Positions 3,254 through 24,367 of a DNA stretch of 35,925 bases are shown piece after piece. The stretch is from Acidimicrobiaceae bacterium (GTDB lineage Bacteria > Actinomycetota > Acidimicrobiia > Acidimicrobiales > RAAP-2). Where the stretch lies: contig PLON01000005.1 of assembly GCA_003142095.1 (NCBI GenBank), forward strand, positions 1-35,925, written 5' to 3'. A model generated the notes under the pieces. It was not told the origin of the DNA and did not search any database. It worked only from the letters and a program-made list of their open reading frames with translations. The position numbers and the translations under genes were made by a program. Within the stretch, counting starts at the first letter, position 1, and every line of letters begins with the position of its first letter.

Positions 3254-4413
3254 GACGCGCGCATGGCGACGTCGGTGTCGATGAAGGCGAAGTCACGCTC
3301 GTCGGGCTGGACGCGCACAATGGAGCGGTGTGCGCCGTACCGCACGAGGGCGACGCCCTTGGGCAGGGCAACGAGATAGCTCTCCTCGCGGGGCTCGAGA
3401 CCGAGGGCGAGGGCCATCTCGCGCGCCTCGTCGGGGGGCTGGCGAAAGAGCCACGCTGTCTCGCACTCGCGCAACAGTCCGCGAGCTCGGTCGCGCTCGA
3501 CACTACCCACGTCGCCGGCCGTTGCCACGTCGCTCCAACGGTGCAGCACCATAACGTGCGACAGTCCTTTTGCACGCGCGAGCTTCCACGATCCCTGCAG
3601 CCAGCGCAACGCGGCGGCGTCACTCAAGAGCGCCCAGGCTTCGTCGATGATGAGATACCCAAGCGACGTGGGGTCGCCCACAACCTGCTGGGCAGCCGCG
3701 ACGGCGCTGAGAACTGCGACCGACAACGAATTCGACGACCACTGTGACGAGAGGTCGACGACGACGAGGTCTCCCGAGAAGCGCAGCGGCTCGTCGGGAC
3801 CGTCGAAGAGTCCAGCCAGATCACCGTGGACGAAGCGGTGCAGCACCAACGCGAGCGATCTCTCCGCGCTCGGAGTTGACGACTCGAGATGCGTTACGAG
3901 CAACTGATAGAGAGCGAAGAGCACCCGGGTCGGCCGTGAGCCAAGGCGTTGCCACGCTTCGTCGAGGGCGTAGTGCTGCTCGTTCGTCAGTGGCGAGCCC
4001 TGCGCACTCGCGACCAAAGCGCGAAGGAGGTGGCGCCCTTCACCGTCGTCCGCGGGAAACGGGCTGCACCATCCGTCGCGGCCGAGCGCGATCGGCGTCG
4101 TGCCGTGGCGCGCCGCGAGCTCCGCGTATTCGCCCTTGGGATCGACGACCACAGCGCGTCGTCCGCGTCGCAGCGCCCGTTCGAGTTGCATCTTCACGAT
4201 CGTGCTCTTGCCCGCACCAATGGACCCAGCGACGATGACGTTGGGATTTGAGACGAGCCCGGCTCCGTAGGCGTCAAAGACGTCGAGAACAAATGATGAG
4301 CCGTACTGGCACTGGCCGAGAGACTCGCCCGCGAGCCCGGTACCCGCGTCGTGAGCGGGAGCTCGAAGACTCACCAAGTCTCTCGAGGTCGCCCAGTGGG
4401 TCCACGCTCTCAC
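3250..4413 (-). CDS. VirB4-like conjugation ATPase, motor half
   Basis: A 387-residue P-loop ATPase resembling the C-terminal half of VirB4/TraC proteins that energise type IV pilus assembly and substrate transfer. Walker A is GSIGAGKST at residues 63-71; VVVDPKGEYAEL at 88-99 is the characteristic strand after it; Walker B is LIIDEAW at 254-260, followed by the VirB4-like K(L)ARAKGLSHVMVLHR region and a C-terminal REECYL-like segment (REESYL). The open frame extends upstream to 4524, but the GTG at 4413 overlaps the preceding stop codon as GTGA and is the best start. The preceding gene carries what looks like the N-terminal VirB4 portion, so the usual single protein seems split in two. Walker residues are intact. 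Confidence 0.85.
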   Translation of the reverse strand: MRAWTHWATSRDLVSLRAPAHDAGTGLAGESLGQCQYGSSFVLDVFDAYGAGLVSNPNVIVAGSIGAGKSTIVKMQLERALRRGRRAVVVDPKGEYAELAARHGTTPIALGRDGWCSPFPADDGEGRHLLRALVASAQGSPLTNEQHYALDEAWQRLGSRPTRVLFALYQLLVTHLESSTPSAERSLALVLHRFVHGDLAGLFDGPDEPLRFSGDLVVVDLSSQWSSNSLSVAVLSAVAAAQQVVGDPTSLGYLIIDEAWALLSDAAALRWLQGSWKLARAKGLSHVMVLHRWSDVATAGDVGSVERDRARGLLRECETAWLFRQPPDEAREMALALGLEPREESYLVALPKGVALVRYGAHRSIVRVQPDERDFAFIDTDVAMRAS

Positions 4414-5474
4414 CACCCCGGCCCGCCCGGTAGTTGCGCGCGAAACCACTCGTACTGGTTTCCGCGTCCGCGTTCGAGCCGAAGACCGCCGTCGTGGGCC
4501 CGGCGCCAGATAATCGTGCTGCACTGTTGAAGATCCTCGAGCGACTCTGCGCTGACGACCACGAACACGGCGAGGCGCACGAGACTGCGCCCGGCCGCGA
4601 CGAGCACCTCGCGTTCGACCAGGCGTTCGAAGCTCCTCGACGAGCGGGCGCTACGGCGAAAGCCCGCGGCACTGGAGGTGACTTCGTCGCTACGCACACG
4701 GTGCACCGCGCGCGCGACGAGACGATGCGCCTTGGTCCCGGCGACCACATCGACGTGCACGCTGACGTCGAGATCAACCGGCGCTCGAAGAATCTGCTCG
4801 AGCAGCGACCCAGACTCTGGCACGGAAGAGAAGTCCCGCACGCGGTAAACGCGCACCAGCTGATCGGGTAGTCGTAGATACGTAAAACGTTCGAACAGCT
4901 GCAACGAGGACGCGTCACCTACGCGGAGGGCGTCGACGGCGAGCGAGTTTCGCAGTCGCCAGCCATCGGGCGCCGGCACCTCGGTGGGCAACGCCAGCAG
5001 CGTCGACGTGGCGCCTCGACGTCTCATGACGTGCTGGCTGACGTGTTGGTTCTCGCTGGCCGCGCTCGCCGCGTCGACCAGTGCGGCCAGCGCCCCAGCC
5101 GCTGCCACGTCACGCCCCGAGAGATCGAGCCTGCCGCGATGATCAAGTTCGTACGCCCGAAAGACGACATCACTCGGCGCCCAAAGGACCACGTCGTCGC
5201 CGAACTCGCGGATTGTCATGTAACGCCACCGCGAACGAGCGAGGTAGCGCGCCACCACCACGAGCGCTTCACCCACGGTCTGTCCGTCACTCATCGGGAC
5301 GGCAGTCAGTAGCAACGCGAGTCCGACGACGAGTTCGCTCGGCGGCGAAGACGATCCCATGACCCAGGCGCTCACGAGTCCGAAACCCGCAACCACGAGC
5401 ACACCTTGATGACGACGGATACCAATCCAGCGCGCTTCCGCGTCAGAGTCCCCGAGCCCGAGAGAGTTACTCAT
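4410..5474 (-). CDS. SCO6880/PrgI-like membrane protein, probable VirB4 N-terminal partner
   Basis: A 354-residue protein with two hydrophobic helices near the N-terminus (GVLVVAGFGLVSAWVMG and ELVVGLALLLTAVPM), then a soluble alpha/beta region with RWRYMTIREFGDDVVLW, LQLFERFTYLRLPD and a C-terminal LVRLAVFVVVSAESLEDLQQ segment. The order matches actinobacterial SCO6880-type proteins, which join a PrgI-like membrane part to a VirB4 N-terminal-like region. It directly precedes, and overlaps by 4 bases, the gene for a VirB4 motor half. The start chosen is the ATG at 5474, overlapping the upstream TrbL-like stop by 8 bases; an in-frame codon at 5510 would add 12 residues. The family name is recalled from sequence character, not searched, so assignment is moderate. 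Confidence 0.62.
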   Translation of the reverse strand: MSNSLGLGDSDAEARWIGIRRHQGVLVVAGFGLVSAWVMGSSSPPSELVVGLALLLTAVPMSDGQTVGEALVVVARYLARSRWRYMTIREFGDDVVLWAPSDVVFRAYELDHRGRLDLSGRDVAAAGALAALVDAASAASENQHVSQHVMRRRGATSTLLALPTEVPAPDGWRLRNSLAVDALRVGDASSLQLFERFTYLRLPDQLVRVYRVRDFSSVPESGSLLEQILRAPVDLDVSVHVDVVAGTKAHRLVARAVHRVRSDEVTSSAAGFRRSARSSRSFERLVEREVLVAAGRSLVRLAVFVVVSAESLEDLQQCSTIIWRRAHDGGLRLERGRGNQYEWFRAQLPGGPGW

Positions 5475-6582
5475 CAAAGTGCCATCCGACGACCGGGCCA
5501 CCCTTGTCACTTCGAATAGCCGCGTGTCCTCCGCGCAAGCGCGGCGTGCCGATGGGGGGCGGTGGCGGCGGGGAGTCGGGGTTCAGGGGCGGCATCGGTG
5601 TCTCGCCCGAACCGGGCCAGGTCTCGAGACCGAGGTCGGCCGGACGCGACGGCGGTTCGGGCACCGGCGCGTTGGGGGTCATCGAACGGGCGGCCTGAGC
5701 GATCGGCGAGGAGGACGCGCCGGAGACGGCGCGCGTCGCGCGAGCGCGAAGACCTTCGAACTGGTGCACCGCCGACTGTTCGAGGAACGGGACAACGCGC
5801 AGCACGAGGTACGGCGTCGCGGTGGCGAGGAGCAGCGTCACCGCACCCGTGATGACCTCGGTCGCTGACGAACCCGTCAACTCGTTGAGACCCAACACCA
5901 ACGTGATAACGATCGCGAACTTGCTCACGGCGACAGCTATGAACGTTTCGCCGAGACGCCATCCCAGGCGGCGAAGCGAAGGAAACGTGACCAGCGGGAC
6001 GACGACGGGAACGAGCACCAATAGCAAGGTCAGGACGACGGTTCGCACGATCAGTTCGAACCACAAGAGCATCGTCGCGACAACCACGACGCAGGCGAGC
6101 AGAAACACGGCGAAGCCCGGCGTCGACGGTTCTAAGCGAGTGAGCGCCACGCCCAGGGCGGTTTCGTGGGCCGCGACGCTGCTCGCCGCGTTCGACGACA
6201 GTTGATTCACGGCTTCGAGGATCAACACCGCCATTGGTCGCGCGAGCGCAATGCCCGCCACACACGCTGGCGCGACGCCGAGGTAGACCCGCCACAGGGC
6301 CGACGCCTCGCCGTGGCGCAGAGCCTGCAGCGTCGAGACGAGAAGACCGAGCATCATTACCACGGGTGCCGGAATCAGCAGGGTATTGAACTCGCTGTTC
6401 GCGCCATTTATCACCGTCGAGGGCTCGCTGGCCGCCGTGATCACGTGGCCCACCGCGTCGAGGATCCACTCGACGCTCGCGACGATCCAACTGGTGAGCG
6501 CGTTGAAGAGATCATTGAAGGTGGACTTACCGAGGTCAGTGATGCACGACGCGGGCGAGAAGACGCACAGCAAGTGCGACAC
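5467..6582 (-). CDS. VirB6/TrbL-like polytopic membrane protein
   Basis: A 371-residue protein with a periplasmic-facing N-terminus (two Cys at positions 6 and 13), an amphipathic stretch LTSWIVASVEWILDAVGHVI, and then about six hydrophobic helices between residues 70 and 265. The cytosolic-looking tail is rich in Pro (a PPPPPP run) and ends WHFDE. This layout is that of VirB6/TrbL channel components and of the actinobacterial TrbL-like proteins found beside SCO6880-type genes. The GTG start shares one base with the TAG stop of the small gene upstream (TAGTG), and its own stop overlaps the next start, so it is embedded in one translationally coupled operon. Assignment rests on topology and context more than on residue identity. 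Confidence 0.65.
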   Translation of the reverse strand: MSHLLCVFSPASCITDLGKSTFNDLFNALTSWIVASVEWILDAVGHVITAASEPSTVINGANSEFNTLLIPAPVVMMLGLLVSTLQALRHGEASALWRVYLGVAPACVAGIALARPMAVLILEAVNQLSSNAASSVAAHETALGVALTRLEPSTPGFAVFLLACVVVVATMLLWFELIVRTVVLTLLLVLVPVVVPLVTFPSLRRLGWRLGETFIAVAVSKFAIVITLVLGLNELTGSSATEVITGAVTLLLATATPYLVLRVVPFLEQSAVHQFEGLRARATRAVSGASSSPIAQAARSMTPNAPVPEPPSRPADLGLETWPGSGETPMPPLNPDSPPPPPPIGTPRLRGGHAAIRSDKGGPVVGWHFDE

Positions 6583-6866
6583 TAGTGAACGCTTAAGCCA
6601 GTGTTGAAGAAAAAGTTGATGAGCTCGGGCGCGGCGCCGATGAGGATAGCGGCGATAATCGAGGTCAACACCGCGCGACGGCCCTGAGCCGATTGATGCA
6701 TATTTTGCGTATGACTACCAATCGCCCAGAGCACGGCTCCCAGCAGTAGCGCGACGAGAGCGCCAATCAGCGCCCACGACGCGATTCCGTCAGCAATTGA
6801 TTGCAACGCCGCGCTACCGGGAAGGTCTGAAGTCGACGGACTCAAAGAAACACCTGCGAAGAACAT
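6582..6866 (-). CDS. Small two-helix membrane protein, VirB2/TrbC- or DUF6112-like
   Basis: A 94-residue protein with two membrane segments (WALIGALVALLLGAVLWAIG at about 29-48 and VLTSIIAAILIGAAPELINF at about 66-85) separated by a short basic loop with QSAQGRR. Size and topology match the pilin-like VirB2/TrbC or DUF6112-type protein that opens actinobacterial TrbL/SCO6880/VirB4 gene sets. The ATG at 6866 is preferred over the upstream in-frame codon at 7082, which would run through the divergent kinase gene and add low-complexity hydrophilic sequence. It is the first gene of the minus-strand operon; the 75 bp to the divergent sensor kinase must hold its promoter. Confidence 0.6.
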   Translation of the reverse strand: MFFAGVSLSPSTSDLPGSAALQSIADGIASWALIGALVALLLGAVLWAIGSHTQNMHQSAQGRRAVLTSIIAAILIGAAPELINFFFNTGLSVH

Positions 6867-17118: not shown

Positions 17119-17146
17119 TTAAGACGCGGCGCGTCTGGACTAGATT
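17119..17146 (+). promoter_or_regulatory. Promoter of tRNA-Ile
   Basis: TTAAGA (17119-17124) and TAGATT (17141-17146) are 16 bases apart and the -10 ends 11 bases before the tRNA. A GC-rich palindrome (GACGCGGCGCGTC) fills most of the spacer. Confidence 0.4.
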
Positions 17147-17157
17147 GGAAGCCCTGC

Positions 17158-17234
17158 GGGGCTATAGCTCAGTCGGTTAGAGCGCGTCACTGATAATGAC
17201 GAGGTCGTAAGTTCGATTCTTACTAGCCCCACCA
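17158..17234 (+). tRNA. tRNA-Ile (GAT anticodon), integration target
   Basis: Acceptor GGGGCTA/TAGCCCC, D arm GCTC...GAGC, anticodon stem CGTCA/TGACG with loop CTGATAA (GAT), T arm GTAAG-TTCGATT-CTTAC, discriminator A at 17231 and encoded CCA at 17232-17234. The 3' part from 17189 is duplicated at 24322-24367, so the working tRNA is presumably a hybrid whose 3' portion was supplied by the integrated element without changing its sequence. Confidence 0.98.
17189..17234 (+). repeat. attL core (46-bp direct repeat, copy 1)
   Basis: Begins ACTGATAATG and ends GCCCCACCA; identical to 24322-24367 over 46 bases. Flanking bases differ on both sides (TC before and GC after here). It lies inside the intact tRNA-Ile and 4 bases from the end of int. 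Confidence 0.95.
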
Positions 17235-17238
17235 GCAC

Positions 17239-18375
17239 CTACACCAAAGGGTTCCCCTCCTCCTTTCGTGGTTCGGCCCCCCCTACGTCCCCCCAACTTC
17301 CTTCGACCGCTTCAATGACTCGAACGATGCCCTGATCCATGACGTGCCCGTAAAGACTGAGGGTCAGTATCGGAGTGGAGTGCCCTAACACGCGAGACAC
17401 TGCCAGCACATCCGGTTGCGCGGCGAGCATGGCCGAAGCTGCGGTGTGGCGAAGGTCGTGAATACGAACATCGGGCAGGCCGGCTCTCCTCCTTGCCTTG
17501 GTCCATCCCGAGCGAGTGGCGAAGTTCCCTCGCGTCCACGCCCGCCCTCTCTTAGTCGTAAAAAGAGGAGCCACCGCATCAGCGTTCTCTATTCGCTTGC
17601 TGATCCATTCAACAAGCAGACGAGGAACAGGAACGGAGCGCGCGCGATGACTTTTAAGATCGCCGAGGTACGCCTTGCCATCGTGTGAGGACTGGCTGAT
17701 CGAACGTTGCAGGCGCAACATGTAGCCCTGCGGCGAGCGATAAACGTCACCGACACGCAGACCGCACATTTCCGACACTCGAATACCAGTGATGGCCATG
17801 AGAATGACCGGAGGTCGGCACTCTTCGGGAAGTTCAGCGAGAAGACGACTCACCTCTTCGACCGTAAGCGCGATGCCCTCTCGTCGCACTCCGCCCTTAG
17901 GTCCTTTCACTCCGACGGCCGGATTCACACGCAAACGACGATCGGCAACTGCGTGAGCGAGGATTCCTCGCAGAACGGCGAGCGCTCGCCGACGGGTCGA
18001 CGGAGCAACTTCTCGATCCGCGAGCCGACCTAGCCATTCTGTGATTTCGGCCGCAGTAATCCTGGCGAGAGCTCGCTTGCCAAAAGTCGGACCGATGTGC
18101 TGGCGGTACATTTGTTTATCGGTACCCTGAGTTAGCGGCGCAACATTCGATCTCGACGCCAGATACTCTTCGGCAACTTCACCGAGCGACACCCGTCCCC
18201 GGGCCGGGTCTACCCAATCGATCCGTGACATTTGCGTCCGACGCGTCGACTCAAAAAGTTTTGCTTCGGACAACGTAGAGAACGTGGCCGACTCGACGAC
18301 CGCTCTCCCCTGTTTGATCCGTACTCGCCACGTGACCTTGCCAGTCCGGGTGGAGACGAGTCGACTAATGGTCAC
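17239..18375 (-). CDS. int: Tyrosine-type site-specific integrase
   Basis: A 378-residue phage-type recombinase that would integrate and excise the element at tRNA-Ile. An N-terminal arm-binding region (1-60) is followed by a core-binding SAM-like domain (about 63-150) and the catalytic domain. The catalytic set is complete: Arg199 in TGIRVSE, Lys241 in LKSHRARSVPVP, His306 and Arg309 in HDLRH, His332 in LGHS and nucleophile Tyr342 in SLYGHV. Length is typical. The start overlaps the xis stop by 4 bases (18372-18375), giving coupled xis-int expression. The 3' end abuts attL, the usual order for tRNA-targeted elements. Confidence 0.97.
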   Translation of the reverse strand: MTISRLVSTRTGKVTWRVRIKQGRAVVESATFSTLSEAKLFESTRRTQMSRIDWVDPARGRVSLGEVAEEYLASRSNVAPLTQGTDKQMYRQHIGPTFGKRALARITAAEITEWLGRLADREVAPSTRRRALAVLRGILAHAVADRRLRVNPAVGVKGPKGGVRREGIALTVEEVSRLLAELPEECRPPVILMAITGIRVSEMCGLRVGDVYRSPQGYMLRLQRSISQSSHDGKAYLGDLKSHRARSVPVPRLLVEWISKRIENADAVAPLFTTKRGRAWTRGNFATRSGWTKARRRAGLPDVRIHDLRHTAASAMLAAQPDVLAVSRVLGHSTPILTLSLYGHVMDQGIVRVIEAVEGSWGDVGGAEPRKEEGNPLV

Positions 18376-18581
18376 CGGGCACTCCCTTCTTCGAGTAGAG
18401 CGATGAGTGCCGAACGCGGGACGAGTACGGTCTTACCGAGATGCACGGCGGCGAGGTGCCCTGCCTCAATGTGGCTGTACACACTGGCCCTCGCCACTCC
18501 GAGAAGTTCAGCCACTTCAGCAACTCGAAAGGCGGGTCGGAGTGGGATCAATTTTTCGATCTCGGTCGACATACCAGTCAC
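18372..18581 (-). CDS. xis: Excisionase (Xis), helix-turn-helix
   Basis: A 69-residue MerR/HTH_17-type DNA-binding protein: FRVAEVAELLGVARASVYSHI forms helix-turn-helix and AGHLAAVHLGKTVLVPRSAL the wing. Such small proteins bend DNA at att sites and bias the integrase towards excision. It overlaps the translocase stop upstream and the int start downstream by 4 bases each, so it is translated within a single chain of coupled genes. Size and position match AICE xis. Confidence 0.88.
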   Translation of the reverse strand: MTGMSTEIEKLIPLRPAFRVAEVAELLGVARASVYSHIEAGHLAAVHLGKTVLVPRSALIALLEEGSAR

Positions 18582-19330
18582 GCACTCTCGGACTCAGGCA
18601 AGTACATCGCTCGGACATCTGCAGGGCTAATCCAGGCGGATCGAAATGGAACCGGGACCGGCATGGTCGGCGTCAGGTTTACGGCCAATCCGAAACCGGG
18701 CCGCCCATCCATCTGTTCGGAAAGGTCAGCATCAAAGAGCATGCGGGTGGCATCTGGTGAAAGGATTCCCAGTCCAATCCTTCCCCTCAGTTGGTCTCGC
18801 GCCGTGCCACCCAGGAAGGCAACGTCGGGACGCTGAAGACCGACTACGACGTGGACTCCACATGCCCGACCGAGGACTAGACATTCGAGAAGAGACTGAC
18901 GTGCGCTGTCCACTCGAACCCTGGTCTCTTTCTCGGTCTCTCCCTTCGCGGGACGAGTCAGAGCCACCATCGCCTCATCTATGACGATAAGGACTGGTCG
19001 GAGACCGAGGGGTTTAGCATCTGGGTCGGTCCAGTGAGTTGCAACGATTCGAGAGAGGTCCTCCATCCTGCTATCGACCTCGTCGGCGCATTGCCGGAGT
19101 ACTTCAGCGATGCGGTGGGGGTCACCCGCGGAGGTCAAGACTCGTCCTCCTTCTGGCCAGTTCCCAAACTCGAGGCGCTTCGGGTCGAGTAGAACCACGG
19201 ACCCTGGCCACGACGCAAGAACGGCCCGGATGACACTGGACTTGCCCGATCCGGTGTCACCGATGACGCACAGATGTGGCGACCAGCCAACATCCCACGA
19301 CGCATCACCTTCCGCAGTACGACCTATCAC
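18578..19330 (-). CDS. FtsK/SpoIIIE-type DNA translocase, motor half (TraB-like)
   Basis: A 250-residue P-loop ATPase corresponding to the motor (beta) domain of FtsK/SpoIIIE and of AICE TraB proteins, which pump double-stranded DNA between mating cells. Walker A is GDTGSGKS at 24-31 following PHLCVIG; VVLLDPKR at 45-52 matches the FtsK signature; Walker B is LIVIDEA at 114-120; GRACGVHVVVGLQRPD is the sensor segment, and RGRIGLGILSPDATRMLFD matches the conserved region after it. No membrane helices or C-terminal winged-helix gamma domain are present. The GTG start overlaps the stop of the upstream membrane half (GTGA), and the two together equal one conventional TraB. Confidence 0.9.
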   Translation of the reverse strand: MIGRTAEGDASWDVGWSPHLCVIGDTGSGKSSVIRAVLASWPGSVVLLDPKRLEFGNWPEGGRVLTSAGDPHRIAEVLRQCADEVDSRMEDLSRIVATHWTDPDAKPLGLRPVLIVIDEAMVALTRPAKGETEKETRVRVDSARQSLLECLVLGRACGVHVVVGLQRPDVAFLGGTARDQLRGRIGLGILSPDATRMLFDADLSEQMDGRPGFGLAVNLTPTMPVPVPFRSAWISPADVRAMYLPESESA

Positions 19331-19980
19331 AGCAGGTCCCAGGGAGAATCATCGAAAGCCCTTGGTCTAACCCTCGGACTGTCTCCGTCCAGGGGGTTTC
19401 GACGGGGCCAGCGAATGGCCACCTCAGCACCGTGGCGCCCCGGTAGAACTACTGGTTCATACTGAGCGCGAAAAGCCGACTGAAGCTCCGCCAACTTTGA
19501 AGCAACGAGAGTTACGGGCATGCCTGGTGGCAACGAGCACCACATCTCAACGCCCCCCGGGTAGGGCCCATGCTTGATAATCCTTGGTACGAAACCGGCC
19601 TTCGTCCGATCCTGACGATCAGGTTGTATTAGACCGGCTGCTGCAAAATTCTTGGGCGCGTTCCTCGTTTCGGTCGCAGCCCAGATTCCGTCTTCTTCAT
19701 ATGGTTGGTAGCGCCGAGCTTGAGCTCTATTCCCCACGGCGTGGGACAAGCGACGACTCATGTGAGGAATGCCCCACAAAAGCCAAACGATCATAGTGAG
19801 AGTCCCGATGACGATACGGTCGGGCCACAACGTCCAGCCGGGCACTACGCAGGCGAGCGCAAGTCCGATAGGGCCACCTATCCAGCGCATAGCGAATTTG
19901 AGCACCTCCCAGAACTCGTCTCCTTCTTGTTGTTGGCTATCTTCTGGAACGCGCTCTAACTTTTTCTTCTTGCCAAACAT
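19327..19980 (-). CDS. Membrane half of FtsK/TraB-like translocase
   Basis: A 217-residue protein with a very basic start (FGKKKKLE), two close membrane helices (about 35-75: IGGPIGLALACVVPGWTLW and VIGTLTMIVWLLWGIPHM), and then a cytosolic part including MWCSLPPGMPVTLVASKLAEL and VAIRWPRRNPLD. The latter resembles the FtsK alpha domain that normally sits before the P-loop, where a LPxG...L..AL stretch aligns the hexamer. The next gene encodes just the motor domain and overlaps by 4 bases, so this looks like the N-terminal half of a divided translocase. A strong AGGAGG lies 6 bases before the ATG at 19980. The alpha-domain assignment is inferred from order and spacing. Confidence 0.68.
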   Translation of the reverse strand: MFGKKKKLERVPEDSQQQEGDEFWEVLKFAMRWIGGPIGLALACVVPGWTLWPDRIVIGTLTMIVWLLWGIPHMSRRLSHAVGNRAQARRYQPYEEDGIWAATETRNAPKNFAAAGLIQPDRQDRTKAGFVPRIIKHGPYPGGVEMWCSLPPGMPVTLVASKLAELQSAFRAQYEPVVLPGRHGAEVAIRWPRRNPLDGDSPRVRPRAFDDSPWDLL

Positions 19981-20017
19981 GTAGATCCTCCTAGTGGATC
20001 GTGACTAAAGATCCGGT

Positions 20018-20058
20018 GAGGGCGACCGTCCTCGTTGTGCGCGACAACGATCACCCTC
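20018..20058 (-). promoter_or_regulatory. Two-tier hairpin between pra-like and translocase genes
   Basis: In the 93-bp gap, CGTTGT (20033-20038) and ACAACG (20044-20049) form an inner stem with a 5-base loop, and GAGGG (20018-20022) can pair with CCCTC (20054-20058) outside it. No T-run follows. It may modulate read-through from the pra-like gene into the tra-xis-int genes or protect the mRNA. Confidence 0.35.
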
Positions 20059-20073
20059 CCGGCGTTTAATTAC

Positions 20074-20460
20074 TTACGGTGTGGCGTGATCGCTGGTACG
20101 TAGCGACTTGGTGGCTATTGGCTCAATGCCTTCAGCCCCCCAGTACACCTGACCTTTGGTCAATCGAACAGACGCGGTCAACATGCTGAATTGCACCGGG
20201 CCTATAGGCACGACAGGTTCAACCTTGGCCGGAATTCGCACCTGGATGACCTGAGTGGTCTTAGTGCCGTACTGCTCGATAACCAACGTCGCCTCGACGG
20301 TCCACAAGAACCGCCCATCTTCGCTGAGATCCTGAACTCGGGCCGTTCCAGCCTTCCGCTCGGACTCGTCTTGATATTTGTAGACGCTGCTCACGTTTCC
20401 GGTAGCACTCGTGCCTAGACGAGAGCCATCAATTGGCAGATCAATGCTCTTGACTTCCAT
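20074..20460 (-). CDS. Pra-like AICE activator protein (tentative)
   Basis: A 128-residue soluble protein. The central part, with ARVQDLSEDGRFLWTVEATL, then a VRIPAKVEPV segment, GPVQFSMLTASVRL and a closing YWGAEGIEPI, follows the pattern I recall for the plasmid replication/integration/excision activators (Pra) of AICEs such as pSAM2: a Gln/Asp-Thr-Gly-like lead, Trp-x-Val, a Pro-flanked strand, then a terminal AxGI. Similarity is by eye. The ATG at 20460 is chosen because AGAGGAGGTG lies 8 bases upstream; an in-frame ATG at 20487 would place that signal inside the gene. It is first in the tra-xis-int transcription unit, behind a promoter carrying repeated operator-like boxes. Confidence 0.45.
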   Translation of the reverse strand: MEVKSIDLPIDGSRLGTSATGNVSSVYKYQDESERKAGTARVQDLSEDGRFLWTVEATLVIEQYGTKTTQVIQVRIPAKVEPVVPIGPVQFSMLTASVRLTKGQVYWGAEGIEPIATKSLRTSDHATP

Positions 20461-20489
20461 AATTTTCACCTCCTCTCTGGAATTCATTA

Positions 20490-20562
20490 TTCACACCATA
20501 TCATGTTCATAGTTCACACCTTGCAATTTCAGTCTCTTTTTGTGAAATGTTTATATTTCACA
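20490..20562. promoter_or_regulatory. Operator-like repeat cluster between divergent element genes
   Basis: TTCACACC occurs at 20490-20497 and 20513-20520 (23 bases apart, about two helical turns). TGTGAAAT (20541-20548) and ATTTCACA (20555-20562) form a perfect inverted repeat with a 6-base spacer. All four share a GTGAA/TTCAC core. The two direct copies flank the minus-strand -10; the inverted pair lies towards the regulator gene. This suits binding of an element-encoded regulator, possibly the 161-residue HTH protein. Confidence 0.6.
20498..20526 (-). promoter_or_regulatory. Promoter of pra-tra-xis-int operon
   Basis: On the minus strand, TTGCAA (20521-20526) and TGATAT (20498-20503) are separated by exactly 17 bases, a good sigma-70-type arrangement. 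One TTCACACC repeat lies in the spacer beside the -35 and the other begins immediately after the -10, where a bound protein would block transcription. Confidence 0.55.
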
Positions 20563-20590
20563 CAAAGACAATTCCTATGTGCGCACTTGC

Positions 20591-20596
20591 TAGGGT
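20591..20596 (+). promoter_or_regulatory. -10 box (TAGGGT) for leaderless element regulator gene
   Basis: TAGGGT ends 6 bases before the ATG at 20603. The inverted TGTGAAAT repeat lies about 30-50 bases upstream of it. Confidence 0.45.
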
Positions 20597-20602
20597 GAAT
20601 TT

Positions 20603-21088
20603 ATGCCGTTCATTGGAAAGCCCGGTCTCTTGAAGTTTGAGACGCTGAATGACTACCTCGGAGATCGATCCACCAACGTCGCGCGTCCACCATATGAAGA
20701 AGAAGACCAAGAAACGCTGAGCGAGTTGGGAGATTTACTCGTGAGCATTCGCGATACTCCGTATTACGAATTGCTCAAATCAATTTCAAAAGAGCCGAGC
20801 ACACCGCTTGAAGCCGTGAGCATCTGGAATGCAATCGAACAAGTTGCTCGGCGGAATGCGACACTGGCAGCTCGCGATGCGCGACGCCAAGGCAAGACGT
20901 GGCAAGACATTGGAGAAGCGGCACTAATTACCAAATCGGCAGCTCTTCAACGATATGAACCAGTGTCTCGAAAACGACGTCGTGAACTTGTAACCGAACT
21001 AAAACGGAAGATGGCCGAGGACTACCCATCCTCAAGGGCTGAAGGCTTGTCGGCAACCAGCGACGACAGTGACTTCATGGGCCGCTAG
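20603..21088 (+). CDS. Element-encoded HTH regulator (putative)
   Basis: A 161-residue, charged, mostly helical protein. Near residues 90-115, RRQGKTWQDIGEAALITKSAALQRY fits the helix-turn-helix pattern (G-x-TW-x-x-IG...S-x-x-A-x-x-R) seen in small plasmid and AICE regulators that resemble sigma region 4. The N-terminal part is acidic (EEEDQETLSELGDLL) and the C-terminus is basic then acidic. It is divergent from the pra-tra-xis-int operon and separated from it by the repeat cluster, the classical setting for a repressor or autoregulator. Codon use and base composition here look AT-richer than in the chromosomal genes. Family is not named with confidence. Confidence 0.6.
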   Translation: MPFIGKPGLLKFETLNDYLGDRSTNVARPPYEEEDQETLSELGDLLVSIRDTPYYELLKSISKEPSTPLEAVSIWNAIEQVARRNATLAARDARRQGKTWQDIGEAALITKSAALQRYEPVSRKRRRELVTELKRKMAEDYPSSRAEGLSATSDDSDFMGR

Positions 21089-21445
21089 CAGCGCCACATC
21101 GACATTTCAGTAATGTCGTGCCGAATTCCTCTTATCAGTATCAAGGAGGGCCGCCTATGGCGGCCCTCGGGGCATCGAGGCGATGCACCCCCTAGCGGGG
21201 CAGGGGCCGCCGCCGTGCTTAGCCTTCGGCACGCCCGTCGGGACCCCTGGGCTGACGCCGTGCACGCCTTCGGTGCCCGACCACAATTCGATACTGAAGG
21301 CATCTCGTCACGAGCTTTCAGTACGACTGTGCGGTCTCAGCAATTGATCAGAGTGAACGAGGGCGCAGAGGCGTTCACGCTGGCAGGGTGAACTTTCTTT
21401 ACGTATTCAAGTACTGAGCCCGGCGGCGACTGTCGGCGACTGTAA
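21089..21445. other. Structured noncoding region of the element; candidate origin or cis-acting locus
   Basis: This 357-bp gap holds a run of hairpins. The first is CGACAT/ATGTCG (21100-21105 and 21113-21118). The second is a perfect 10-bp stem with a 3-base loop, GAGGGCCGCC/GGCGGCCCTC (21146-21155 and 21159-21168). The third is GCATCG/CGATGC (21172-21177 and 21181-21186), extended by GGG/CCC around one bulge. GC-rich potential pairings of CGTGC/GCACG and CAGGGG/CCCCTG type continue to about 21280. There is no T-run after the stems, so they do not look like ordinary terminators. AAGGAGG followed 8 bases later by an ATG (21157) opens a 12-codon reading frame whose SD and start lie within the big stem. 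AICEs need a replication origin and a transfer locus, and this is the best candidate. Confidence 0.5.
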
Positions 21446-22978
21446 CTACGGCGAGGCTTTCCTTTCGTAGAGGCCGAATCCCGCTCGACTTTGTACAATG
21501 CGGTAACTGCTGGCAATCTGATTCAACACTCCTGGGTTGTCGGCGGAACTGAGCGGAATCGGAAGGAGCAGATACTGCACCTGGCTCGCGACGGGAAGCC
21601 TCGCCCCGGTGTCATTTAAGAGACCCCAATTTGAGGCGTAAAACGGAGTCGGCCAAACATAGACCTGGTCCCGGTGGTCGATATGCGACACCAAGGGATA
21701 CCATGCCGAGACGACGGCATTTGGCGGTAAACCCTTCTCGAGATAATTAAGCGCATTAATGGAACTCGATGGCACCCAGCCCGTGTAGACGTCATTGACT
21801 GAGAACGGGGCGAAACCCCACAGGGAGCAGGACCAGACTGCCGCAATCAGGGCCACCGCCGTCAAGACACTTCTGCGCCAGATGTGGGACTGTTTGGCGA
21901 TGGCGTAAGCCGTCCCGAGCACCAAAACCGGCGCCAACGGCATCGAGTACTGATACAGAATCTGATGCATGTAGGGGTCATTGCTGATGATGATCTCGGC
22001 GACCACGAGGACCCCGATGAGGGCAATCTCCGGAGCAAGCAGAAAGACGAAGCCGACGGTGCTCCCGAGTTGCCAAAGATAAAAGGGGCGCCCTTGCGAG
22101 ACCAGATAGGACCAGAGTTGCCCGGGCCTGCGTATGAGGGTGCTCAGCAGACCTGAAACGCCACCGAACGGTATTCGCGAGGAATAGATACTCGACGAGC
22201 CGAGCAGCCACGGGATGATCAGCCAGTTAGCCACCATGGCCCAGAGCACCGACCCGACGACGATTATTATCCCCAACCAGCGATCTCGCCGAGCAGCGAC
22301 CCACACGCCTAAAGGAACGACGAGTAACGCCGCGTCCTCTTTCACCATCAGCGAGAGCACCACCATGACCACGAGTAGTACTGACCGACGCTCGATGGCG
22401 GCGTAGATTGCCAGGCTAATGAAGAGCACTTGGAACGCCTCGGGGTGAAACTGATTGAGATTGCCTTGCTGTAAGACGGGGTTCAACAGATACGTGGCGA
22501 CGAGTGACGTAGCGATGAGGGTGCTCTTGATGTATTTGCGAGCCAGCAGGTAGATGGGGACGGCGGGACCAGCGAGCAAAAGCGTCTGCAGGACGAGGAG
22601 TCCCTGCGGCTCGGGGAAGAGTCGGTAGAACGGCGCGAATAGCAACAACACGAAGGACGTATGGTCACCGAAAAGATTTCGTCCCATGATTGTCACGAAG
22701 GGCTCGTGGAAATGGGAAACGAGCCACATACCCTGATCGAAGATCGCGAGATCGAAGGGGGGTTCTCCGTAGCCGTAGTACATCTTCAGGCTCAGATGAA
22801 TGAACCATCCCACATAGAGGACAACGAGGAGAAGGACTCCCATGTTCTTCATCTGAGTCACCGAACGCCAGGTTCTTGTAGCCCAATTCGACAGGACGCA
22901 CAGGGCAGAGCCGGAATTCACCAATGGCCGCGCATGTTTGCCATGAACAATGTGGACACTCGATGACTTCTCGCGCAT
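21446..22978 (-). CDS. DUF2079-type polytopic membrane protein (element cargo)
   Basis: A 510-residue membrane protein with about 10-12 helices. After the first helix (LLLVVLYVGWFIHLSLKMYYG) it shows PPFDLAIFDQGMWLVSHF, GRNLFGDHTSFVLLLFAPFY and LLARKYIKSTLIA, then NQFHPEAFQVLFISLA, the hallmarks of the DUF2079 family. Members resemble glycosyltransferase-C-type membrane enzymes in topology (acidic residues early in a first outside loop), but their function is unknown. The start is taken as ATG at 22978 because TAGTTT lies 7 bases upstream; GTG at 23011 is the other choice. It is not a known AICE mobility gene, so it is probably cargo acting on the host envelope. It lies downstream of rep in the same direction, 187 bp away. 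Confidence 0.8.
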   Translation of the reverse strand: MREKSSSVHIVHGKHARPLVNSGSALCVLSNWATRTWRSVTQMKNMGVLLLVVLYVGWFIHLSLKMYYGYGEPPFDLAIFDQGMWLVSHFHEPFVTIMGRNLFGDHTSFVLLLFAPFYRLFPEPQGLLVLQTLLLAGPAVPIYLLARKYIKSTLIATSLVATYLLNPVLQQGNLNQFHPEAFQVLFISLAIYAAIERRSVLLVVMVVLSLMVKEDAALLVVPLGVWVAARRDRWLGIIIVVGSVLWAMVANWLIIPWLLGSSSIYSSRIPFGGVSGLLSTLIRRPGQLWSYLVSQGRPFYLWQLGSTVGFVFLLAPEIALIGVLVVAEIIISNDPYMHQILYQYSMPLAPVLVLGTAYAIAKQSHIWRRSVLTAVALIAAVWSCSLWGFAPFSVNDVYTGWVPSSSINALNYLEKGLPPNAVVSAWYPLVSHIDHRDQVYVWPTPFYASNWGLLNDTGARLPVASQVQYLLLPIPLSSADNPGVLNQIASSYRIVQSRAGFGLYERKASP

Positions 22979-22985
22979 TTGCACC

Positions 22986-22991
22986 AAACTA
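22986..22991 (-). promoter_or_regulatory. -10 box (TAGTTT) for DUF2079-type gene
   Basis: On the minus strand TAGTTT ends 7 bases before the ATG at 22978, suggesting the cargo gene has its own leaderless promoter and need not be read from rep. Confidence 0.4.
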
Positions 22992-23165
22992 TAGAGTTCC
23001 TCGTTGATCACTTTTCGAAAGCGGTGGACGATTCATCGTCCCGTCGCCCCGATTGTAAATACTTGGGCCGCACTTGTGCTCATATCGTCGCTCGGCGAGT
23101 CGCGAGTGAATTTCGAGGGGCTGGCTCCGAAGTTTTCTACGTGCACGCCACGCGCTCGGATGAAC

Positions 23166-24194
23166 TTAAACGATTGGTGCACGATCGGATGTGTTGACCG
23201 AATCAAAAATGCGCCTAAGCCGTTGGGCACGCTGAAGACGACCGGCGTCACGCGCGATGGTTGGAAGCGAATCAACGAACCTTCTACGAACTTCAGCCTG
23301 CTTTGTACGGGTAAGTCCGGTGAAGGACCAATTCCGCGAAACCGAAACCACCGATGACCGGGCGCCATACCGGCGGTGAGCAGCAGCCAGACAGCCGTTC
23401 CGCCTTCCCCGACAACCTGGCTTGCAGCGCATTCGATGGGCTGCAGCGTCGAGTCGATGAGAGTGCTCTGATATTGGAGCGGCCGCGCTAGAGCCGATCG
23501 ACTTAACGCTGTAGCCAATCATCTTGGACAAGTAGGCAATATGGTGGGCGCTCGACACCGGGTCGATCGGAATAGGACGACAATCGACTTGCGTTCCCCA
23601 GGCCAAGGTTCGACCAGCGATTGATGCCGTGGCAGCCGCAGCCGCACGTGCCACTTCGTGGGGAGCAATATCAGTCGAACTAGGAACCCTGATAATGGAG
23701 TGATGATGAAGGGCACCCCGCGCCTGCCACTCGCGAACGACGGCATACGAAGCCCTAGCGCCAAATAGACGTTCAAGGCGGCGGCGAGTACGGTCCCACA
23801 AAACCCCGCAATCTCGGTTCCAGCAGACCTGTCCCTCGTAGTCGTAACTATCGGGATCAATAGCAACACCACGAAGATCACCGTCGTCAGAATCGTGCAG
23901 ACCGCCGCAGCGACACCGCTGTTGCCCCTGACGTGGCACTCGGTGAATCAGGCCAAAACTTGGCGCGGTGAGCGTAAGGAAGAACCACACGTACGTCTCA
24001 CCCTCGGGTGGATCAAACACCCCCGAACGAATGATCGCCGCCCAGTCCCCAACCACAATCTTCGAGCAGTGAGCGCAATAGCTAGCATCTCTGCTTCCGC
24101 AGCGAACAAAAACCGGACGCCCCCGTGGACCGGGGACTTGGAGAGGGTGCGCACACTCGACATGAGAGAGAATTTCGATGAAGTCGACCGCCAT
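23166..24194 (-). CDS. RepSA-like rolling-circle replication initiator
   Basis: A 342-residue HUH-type initiator resembling pSAM2 RepSA. A Cys-rich N-terminus (Cys14, Cys32, Cys40, Cys43; later RCRCGGLH) suggests zinc binding. Motif I is FFLTLTAPSFG at 71-81; the HUH motif is in GALHHHSIIRV with His163 and His165; motif III is AYLSKMIGYSVKS with Tyr221, Lys224 and Tyr228, matching the AYxxKY.xK pattern of the family. A second Cys-rich patch, RMRCKPGCRGRRNGC, follows, then a basic tail. The protein would nick the element origin and drive replication of the excised circle. In pSAM2 rep is next to xis-int; here it stands at the attR end, alone with the DUF2079-type gene. The ATG start lacks a clear ribosome site. 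Confidence 0.85.
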   Translation of the reverse strand: MAVDFIEILSHVECAHPLQVPGPRGRPVFVRCGSRDASYCAHCSKIVVGDWAAIIRSGVFDPPEGETYVWFFLTLTAPSFGLIHRVPRQGQQRCRCGGLHDSDDGDLRGVAIDPDSYDYEGQVCWNRDCGVLWDRTRRRLERLFGARASYAVVREWQARGALHHHSIIRVPSSTDIAPHEVARAAAAATASIAGRTLAWGTQVDCRPIPIDPVSSAHHIAYLSKMIGYSVKSIGSSAAAPISEHSHRLDAAAHRMRCKPGCRGRRNGCLAAAHRRYGARSSVVSVSRNWSFTGLTRTKQAEVRRRFVDSLPTIARDAGRLQRAQRLRRIFDSVNTSDRAPIV

Positions 24195-24321
24195 GAAGTG
24201 ACGGAGATACCTTCGGAATTAAGTCCCCCCGTAGTCCCCCGAGCTTCACGAACCATCAGATTCGACACGCCCTTCCGACTCGTCGTAACGCTTTGATCAG
24301 GAGCTGCGGAATTAGAGGCGG

Positions 24322-24367
24322 ACTGATAATGACGAGGTCGTAAGTTCGATTCTTACTAGCCCCACCA
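24322..24367 (+). repeat. attR core (46-bp direct repeat, copy 2)
   Basis: Perfect copy of 17189-17234: the 3' part of tRNA-Ile from the anticodon loop to CCA. The sequence before it (GAGGCGG) does not continue the tRNA, so this is a non-functional remnant marking the right end of the element. Confidence 0.95.

Follow-up and report, generated by a model that had tools for sequence, protein, structure and literature searches.

The 35,925-nt stretch of DNA analysed here (the window; contig PLON01000005.1 of assembly GCA_003142095.1, Acidimicrobiaceae bacterium) carries a 7.1-kb element in a tRNA-Ile gene, which is very probably an actinobacterial integrative element of the AICE (actinomycete integrative and conjugative element) type, recently mobile in a host of the class Acidimicrobiia. 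Its movement between species is well supported because copies that are 91–98% identical in the aligned blocks are present in two other species, with flanks that are 73–79% identical, and because the empty site was read in five relatives. The pump of the element is encoded by two overlapping genes, its replication initiator is divergent, and it carries a DUF2079 gene that is shared with a second AICE of the same genus.

Boundaries and gene content

The element is bounded by two identical 46-bp direct repeats spaced by 7,133 bp (Table 1). A search of 12 kb found only one further direct repeat, a 26-nt pair (77%), and the 46-bp core occurs in the host genome at just the two attachment (att) positions, among the matches found. 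The tRNA-Ile gene stays complete because the core carries the tRNA 3' end. The G+C content is 57.1% in the element versus 63.2% and 61.0% in the flanks. Eight open reading frames (ORFs) lie between the cores in the order att-int-xis-tra-tm-o137-o161-cargo-rep-att, all on the minus strand except orf161. A preliminary description, made from the sequence of the stretch, had placed identical repeats at these positions, with int abutting attL and rep set apart from xis-int, and all of this holds: the int ORF ends 5 bp from attL, and rep lies near attR, behind the cargo. The genes named in that description are present, and its inventory omitted four ORFs, which encode the 217-aa transmembrane protein, the 137-aa protein, the divergent 161-aa protein and the 521-aa DUF2079 protein.

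The integrase (Int), the Xis-like helix-turn-helix (HTH) protein, the FtsK_SpoIIIE motor and the RepSA initiator each score above the Pfam gathering threshold (Int, 66.1 bits against PF00589, cut-off 27.1; motor, 45.1 bits against PF01580, cut-off 24; Rep, 141.5 bits against PF20199, cut-off 34, over profile positions 47–398 of 438). On recount, the key residues previously listed for the three enzymes were all found, namely R199, K241, H306, R309, H332 and Y342 in Int, the Walker A motif GDTGSGKS (residue 24) and a Walker-B-like LIVIDE (residue 114) in the motor, and His163 and His165 (within HHH at 163–165) with Tyr221 and Tyr228 in Rep.

The working definition of an AICE in a 2011 survey (Ghinet et al. 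2011, PMC3218068) comprises an Int, an FtsK-type Tra and a RepSA protein between att repeats, with int beside one att; there, the replication protein can be RepSA, RepAM or Prim-Pol, the integrase is of the tyrosine or serine type and int does not lie between rep and tra. The window element has an integrase, an FtsK/SpoIIIE protein and RepSA, with int beside att and outside the rep–tra interval, as well as direct repeats from tRNA insertion and empty sites in relatives. The AICE identity put forward in the preliminary description is borne out by this definition, and Rep and the motor do resemble AICE families, as that reading supposes.

The motif GTCCCCC is found near the att cores, once in the left arm (17287) and twice in the right arm (24223 and 24234); these copies are possible Int or Xis arm sites, in a motif too short to judge.

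Table 1. Features of the tRNA-Ile element and its insertion site (window coordinates)
Feature	Coordinates	Strand	Basis and remarks
tRNA-Ile(GAT), target gene	17158..17234	+	ARAGORN; intact after insertion
attL, 46-bp core within the tRNA-Ile 3' end	17189..17234	no strand	Repeat search
int, tyrosine integrase, 378 aa, PF00589	17239..18375	-	Pfam and residue count
xis, Xis-like HTH_17/excise-domain protein, 69 aa	18372..18581	-	Pfam and NCBIfam
Motor (tra), FtsK/SpoIIIE type, 250 aa, PF01580; C-terminal half of the split translocase	18578..19330	-	Pfam and alignment
tm217, membrane/adaptor protein, 217 aa	19327..19980	-	Collinear with the N-terminal half of fused AICE translocases
orf137, family-less protein, 137 aa	20074..20487	-	Pfam
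Divergent promoter/operator region with three TTCACAC sites	20488..20602	no strand	Copy comparison; sites in G017, absent in G092
orf161, divergent ORF, 161 aa	20603..21088	+	Weak PHROG HTH match
Structured non-coding DNA, candidate replication/transfer origin	21089..21445	no strand	Folding z -5.8
22-nt site GAACTTTCTTTACGTATTCAAG	21390..21411	+	Found again close to rep genes of other AICEs
DUF2079 polytopic membrane protein, 521 aa as called, cargo	21446..23011	-	Pfam; start possibly ~17 codons further in
rep, RepSA-type HUH initiator, 342 aa, PF20199	23166..24194	-	Pfam and alignment
attR, other copy of the 46-bp core	24322..24367	no strand	Repeat search

Copies in other species and empty sites

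The element occupies the same tRNA-Ile gene, with the same att, in another species of the genus (G017, contig PLKM01000010.1, sample bog_806) and in a third species (G092, contig PLZP01000123.1, sample palsa_741), both deposited in GenBank as Acidimicrobiaceae bacterium, class Acidimicrobiia. The sample names point to a single, much-studied mire with its peat and palsa soils. The G017 copy is 98.0% identical to the window over positions 17133–23056 and 97.9% over 23836–24367, where the alignment stops at the attR edge, whereas the chromosome flanking the element is 73–79% identical. The G092 copy aligns in three blocks (98.4% over 17132–20145, 91.0% over 20756–21933 and 96.5% over 22477–24367), and the left flanks of the two are 73–78% identical.

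To survey empty sites, listings of 61 and 99 genomes were compared by eye. The gap between tRNA-Ile and the downstream aminotransferase gene is at most 0.5 kb, on one contig and in the same orientation, in 11 genomes (G005, G013, G016, G019, G022, G023, G028, G033, G063, G074 and G075). Five of these junctions, from five species, were read base by base (G005, G022, G023, G028 and G074) and consist of one core that leads into the aminotransferase start; in G033, different DNA comes after the core, and in two further genomes the two genes are oppositely oriented. The empty tRNA-Ile site that the preliminary description had proposed to look for in relatives does exist, and its view of an apparently complete element, together with recent mobility, agrees with the finding of one copy in each of three species whose flanks have diverged.

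Comparisons of the eight ORFs with their counterparts in G017 and G092 yielded dN/dS point estimates of 0.06–0.37, with the orf161–G092 row left unused (alignment gaps, two apparent stops) and orf137–G092 without a nucleotide match. In a binomial test for selection on five ORFs (int, motor, tm217, DUF2079 and rep), seven of eight comparisons gave P below 0.05 (int, 8e-5 and 7e-5; tm217, 0.03 and 0.04; DUF2079, 0.0004; rep, 9e-7; motor versus G092, 0.005).

In G003, G009, G012, G018, G020, G032, G036, G076, G079, G081 and G082, 1.8–41 kb of variable DNA separates tRNA-Ile from the aminotransferase gene. We rejected these intervals as further AICEs for the 10 genomes fetched whole or in part (G082 excluded), in which phmmer detected no Int, Rep or FtsK homologue.

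A translocase encoded by two genes

Placed end to end, tm217 and the motor align with the fused FtsK proteins of AICE loci in the class. The fused comparators are eight stop-to-stop ORFs of 434–518 aa among the 13 ORFs aligned; the others are shorter or broken, such as the G049 homologue, which lies in two overlapping frames. The split point falls in the linker directly before the motor (SPWDLL/(V)IGRTAEG versus SLWDAVPVGVNEEG). In all three copies tm217 ends in TGA TAG and the motor starts at an overlapping GTG (4-nt GTGA overlap), with an additional ATG 12 nt before this start in G017 and G092. The break in the linker, together with the junction overlap in all three copies, makes it probable that a one-base frame change divided an originally fused translocase gene; the form that spread is the divided one. 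The two-gene arrangement offers a testable handle on whether a conjugative FtsK pump works with its membrane part and its motor as separate proteins. PADLOC also matches the motor to mad8 of MADS (47.5 bits), which we read as common FtsK ancestry.

A DUF2079 cargo on two AICE backbones

Roughly a fifth of the element is taken up by the DUF2079 gene (Pfam score 178 bits). DUF2079 is present in 28 of the 99 genomes of the genus, and a tree of 28 rows, built without two G092 fragments and one G026 fragment, unites the six element-linked copies of full length in a single clade (99/98). In two species, the gene resides inside a different AICE at tRNA-Val (G012, L039 4674–11475; G091, L202 5671–12472), which has 43-bp att repeats (41 positions identical) spaced by 6,759 bp and the canonical order ftsK-rep-xis-int. 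Over 7,562 bp the two tRNA-Val copies are 98.7% identical, compared with 85.7% in the flank, and this is a second recently mobile AICE in the genus. The DUF2079 stretch alone (1,596 bp, 83.6%) is common to the window element and the tRNA-Val AICE in blastn, and the encoded proteins share 84% amino acid identity.

A sister element has been reduced in G069 (L199) and G100 (L200) to a truncated rep (rep'), DUF2079 and the C-terminus of int. In rep', residues 1–38 are fused to residue 295 onward, with identical deletion points in both genomes, and a degraded attR (33 of 46 positions) adjoins the G100 remnant. Since DUF2079 is open and constrained in these remnants (dN/dS 0.20; 42 synonymous and 28 non-synonymous changes; P 4e-10), hosts seem to keep it once the element decays, and its presence on two backbones gives a testable handle on why they do. 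The preliminary description had suggested that the element could be minimal. This part is not supported: the element is neither minimal nor alone, because it contains the DUF2079 cargo and because a 6.76-kb AICE and remnants with the same gene exist in the genus.

The remaining DUF2079 genes of the genus are 29–73% identical where complete; at 12 loci of such genes we found no AICE genes nearby, except one FtsK-like ORF in L207, and some have common chromosomal neighbours. Seven DUF2079 matches are in plasmid records and one is in phage records, all distant, and a contig of the viral collection (L220, IMGVR_UViG_3300037482_000265, positions 2–1567) encodes a distant DUF2079 protein (27%). No relative was found among solved structures, nor was a paper by the name DUF2079 found in the open literature searched. 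A structure predicted from a 3-row alignment had a mean predicted local distance difference test (pLDDT) score of 42 and was set aside. DUF2079 may be a GT-C-like glycosyltransferase; its match to NCBIfam NF046093 ('cell surface glycopolymer') is weak, at 18 of 150 bits.

A divergent Rep and a candidate origin

The element Rep scores 141 bits on PF20199, versus 340–498 bits for a typical RepSA of the genus. Its motif 3 reads YxxKxxxY, with tyrosines 7 apart, versus YxxKY in most of the 41 Reps aligned; the wider spacing recurs in G000:C21 and G092:C119, and G044 lacks the second tyrosine. Outside the three copies, the closest relative is the G044 Rep, from another family of the order (49% identical), with which the window Rep groups in the tree (100/99) on long branches, for which the program printed a long-branch warning. 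Four Reps share the 3-aa insert between their tyrosines without grouping as a single clade. The previously suggested new AICE branch holds in so far as Rep branches deeply, on long branches, and the motor is split; it does not extend to Int and Xis, which are ordinary. RepSA occurs in 33 of the 99 genus genomes, 32 of them above the cut-off, and in 18 of the 395 genomes sampled across the class. The host genome encodes a second RepSA-type Rep of 385 aa together with an FtsK-like ORF (G000:C21, L033; 6713–7795 and 10964–12118), with no integrase homologue in the 18 kb fetched.

The non-coding stretch between orf161 and DUF2079 folds far better than its shuffles (none of 100 as stable) and is 97–100% identical in the three copies from 21151 on. 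It includes one 10-bp tandem pair (21424–21443) and the 22-nt site, which, allowing up to two mismatches, recurs at 29 places in 23 of the 99 genus genomes; a reversed control was found at none. The site coincides with RepSA, in statistics uncorrected for kinship: RepSA is present in 17 of the 23 genomes with the site versus 16 of the 76 without it (P 6e-6), in 14 of 20 site-bearing genomes when the three element copies are left out (P 7e-5), and in five of the six class genomes, out of 395, that contain the site (P 6e-7). Where rep and the site lie within 10 kb on one contig (the window, G027, G100, G103, G113, G317 and G486), the site is on the strand opposite rep in seven of seven cases. 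Most copies follow a strong hairpin, and the sequence diverges directly past CAAG. The reverse complement starts with CTTGAATA, resembling what we take to be the pC194-type nick sequence, CTTGATA.

We prefer the reading that the 22-nt site may be an origin. A simple version of it is opposed by the tRNA-Val AICE in L039, where the site is absent even at five mismatches, by six genus genomes that contain the site without a RepSA match, and by several copies that stand behind tRNA-Val terminators. The site is also a recombination junction, since a 2.37-kb segment bounded by two of its copies is found in L260 but missing from L259. It is found in tandem in G378 (L273).

Two other identities for the 22-nt site were considered. 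We rejected an omega RNA and the right terminus of an IS605/TnpB-type transposon, with no common upstream ORF, no such transposase in the ten ORFs scanned and no Rfam match in five loci; for an integron-like attC, no recombinase was identified. Copies of the site lie in L250, L256, L259, L260, L265, L270, L272 and L273. Relative to L251, L250 has a 2.5-kb insert (4153–6687), which contains ORFs of the P63C-domain and IS1-like transposase types, 270 bp before the site.

A probable regulatory module, variable between copies

Along the element, identity is 97–100% outside 20101–21000. Within this interval, G017 drops to 91–92% in three 150-base bins (20401–20850) and G092 to 52–71%, and the G092 proteins are 61% (orf161) and 50% (orf137) identical to those of the window. 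The TTCACAC sites at 20490, 20513 and 20557 are present in G017 and absent in G092. We consider orf161 a probable DNA-binding regulator, and the pattern, seen in two types only, fits a regulator swapped together with its matching operators, as in phage immunity regions.

Alternative explanations

Several observations weigh against the AICE reading. The motor reaches 24.2 of 800 bits on the NCBIfam plasmid TraB model and Rep 110.7 of 700 bits on the RepSA equivalog, both missing the strict cut-offs. In comparison with G017, the motor has 5 synonymous and 5 non-synonymous changes (P 0.09), not significantly below neutrality. No cis-acting locus of transfer (clt) was identified in the element, where the 10-bp tandem pair and the 22-nt site were all that was seen. 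Contig gaps hide 23057–23835 in G017 (~0.78 kb) and 21934–22476 in G092 (~0.54 kb), so that neither copy is whole, and the right flank of the G092 copy has no ORF in common with that of the window. One could suppose that the element integrates and replicates without being self-transmissible, its split motor being a relic or serving segregation, and moves with a resident AICE or by transduction. The one-base frame offset with two consecutive stops at the junction would suit this, and further RepSA genes in some host genomes (G000:C21; G092:C78, C97 and C119) are potential helpers. We nevertheless regard it as unlikely: both halves of the translocase remain open under constraint in every one of the three copies (pooled P, 0.007 with G017 and 0.0009 with G092), their junction lines up with fused translocases and shows an ordinary 4-nt gene overlap, and short Tra proteins are known in AICEs, with a span of 139–738 aa in Streptomyces (PMC9513070).

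Decay of an AICE into a genomic island is documented nearby by the G069 and G100 remnants, with rep' and int' around an intact DUF2079, and by the broken G049 FtsK homologue; for the window element it is very improbable, as every gene is open, the two att repeats match exactly and species with flanks about 75% identical carry near-identical copies. PHROG matches for Int and the motor might point to a phage satellite or a plasmid prophage moved by virions, which is even harder to sustain given that Pfam and PHROGs reveal no capsid, packaging or tail gene among the eight ORFs and that the viral contigs scanned with Rep and with the motor hold no relative. The explanation we find least credible is that a single element appears as several copies through faulty assembly or binning. 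All of them do come from metagenome bins, and contig ends break the element in two, but in three of three copies one contig spans the left junction to the species-specific flank, the G017 and G092 records come from differently named samples, and 2% divergence and an exchanged module separate the copies.

Proposed cycle and relation to known elements

In the AICE reading, which we favour, the element would transfer itself. Int with Xis would recombine the 46-bp cores into an excised circle and leave tRNA-Ile whole, in keeping with the intact tRNA and the empty sites. Rep, judged by its HUH and tyrosine motifs, would nick the origin, most likely within the structured stretch that holds the 22-nt site, and copy the circle by rolling circle. 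As in the FtsK/TraB family, the transmembrane adaptor and motor would pump double-stranded DNA into a neighbouring cell, where the circle would integrate into the same tRNA-Ile, the site occupied in three species. Acting with the facing operator, orf161 probably keeps the system switched off, and the DUF2079 cargo, predicted to lie in the membrane, may act on the host cell envelope.

Like the pSAM2-type AICEs of the RepSA group (PMC3218068), the element combines a tyrosine Int next to an att in a tRNA gene with an Xis-like HTH protein, an FtsK-type Tra and a RepSA-family initiator. Unlike them, it has rep at the far end behind the cargo, a Tra made of two genes, and a short (342 aa), divergent Rep with wider tyrosine spacing; its regulator/operator module, which differs between copies, also departs from the canonical AICE. 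Permuted gene orders are listed as well in section 10 of the same survey, so that the departure in order does not decide the matter. Two AICE-like regions, NZ_CP108363.1 (Streptomyces sp. NBC_01343) and NZ_CP130632.1, likewise encode a small protein, FtsK and Rep, the first also an HTH protein and a tyrosine Int, but they have a fused FtsK of 433–442 aa, a GntR regulator and rep directly after tra, and their best Rep identity to the element is 32–37%. The tRNA-Val AICE resembles the element in its genus, its nearly identical cargo and its recent spread, and differs in its canonical tra-rep-xis-int order, unrelated att and fused Tra. According to PMC9513070, decay of Streptomyces AICEs leaves cargo and a truncated integrase together at a single site, a state also seen in G069 and G100; unlike in the Streptomyces cases, the cargo here is a single DUF2079 gene for which constraint after decay was measured.

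The 2011 survey of 275 genomes reported AICEs as confined to Actinomycetales and the Acidimicrobidae as 'completely devoid' of them (PMC3218068). When we searched the open literature for AICEs or conjugative elements and required Acidimicrobi- terms as well, that paper was the single hit; among the 15 of 145 papers listed by a looser search, none had the integrative and conjugative element term. The split pump, the displaced rep, the divergent Rep and the shared DUF2079 cargo set the element apart, in a class reported free of AICEs, and an AICE-type element has moved between species of an uncultured genus of that class. A more speculative and, taken as a whole, unlikely extension is that the Acidimicrobiia have their own AICE lineage, characterized by a two-gene overlapping pump, a swapped immunity-like regulator/operator and backbones passing on a DUF2079 gene that hosts keep after decay, perhaps as a surface change against phages or elements, with the hairpin-linked 22-nt site as a common rolling-circle origin and recombination junction across several families of the order.

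A structure predicted for orf137 had a mean pLDDT of 39.5 and was likewise set aside. In two AICE-like regions of Streptomyces/Kutzneria, the place of orf137 ahead of tra is taken by the gene of a small protein, to which the orf137 protein shows weak similarity (hhalign probability 28.6%).

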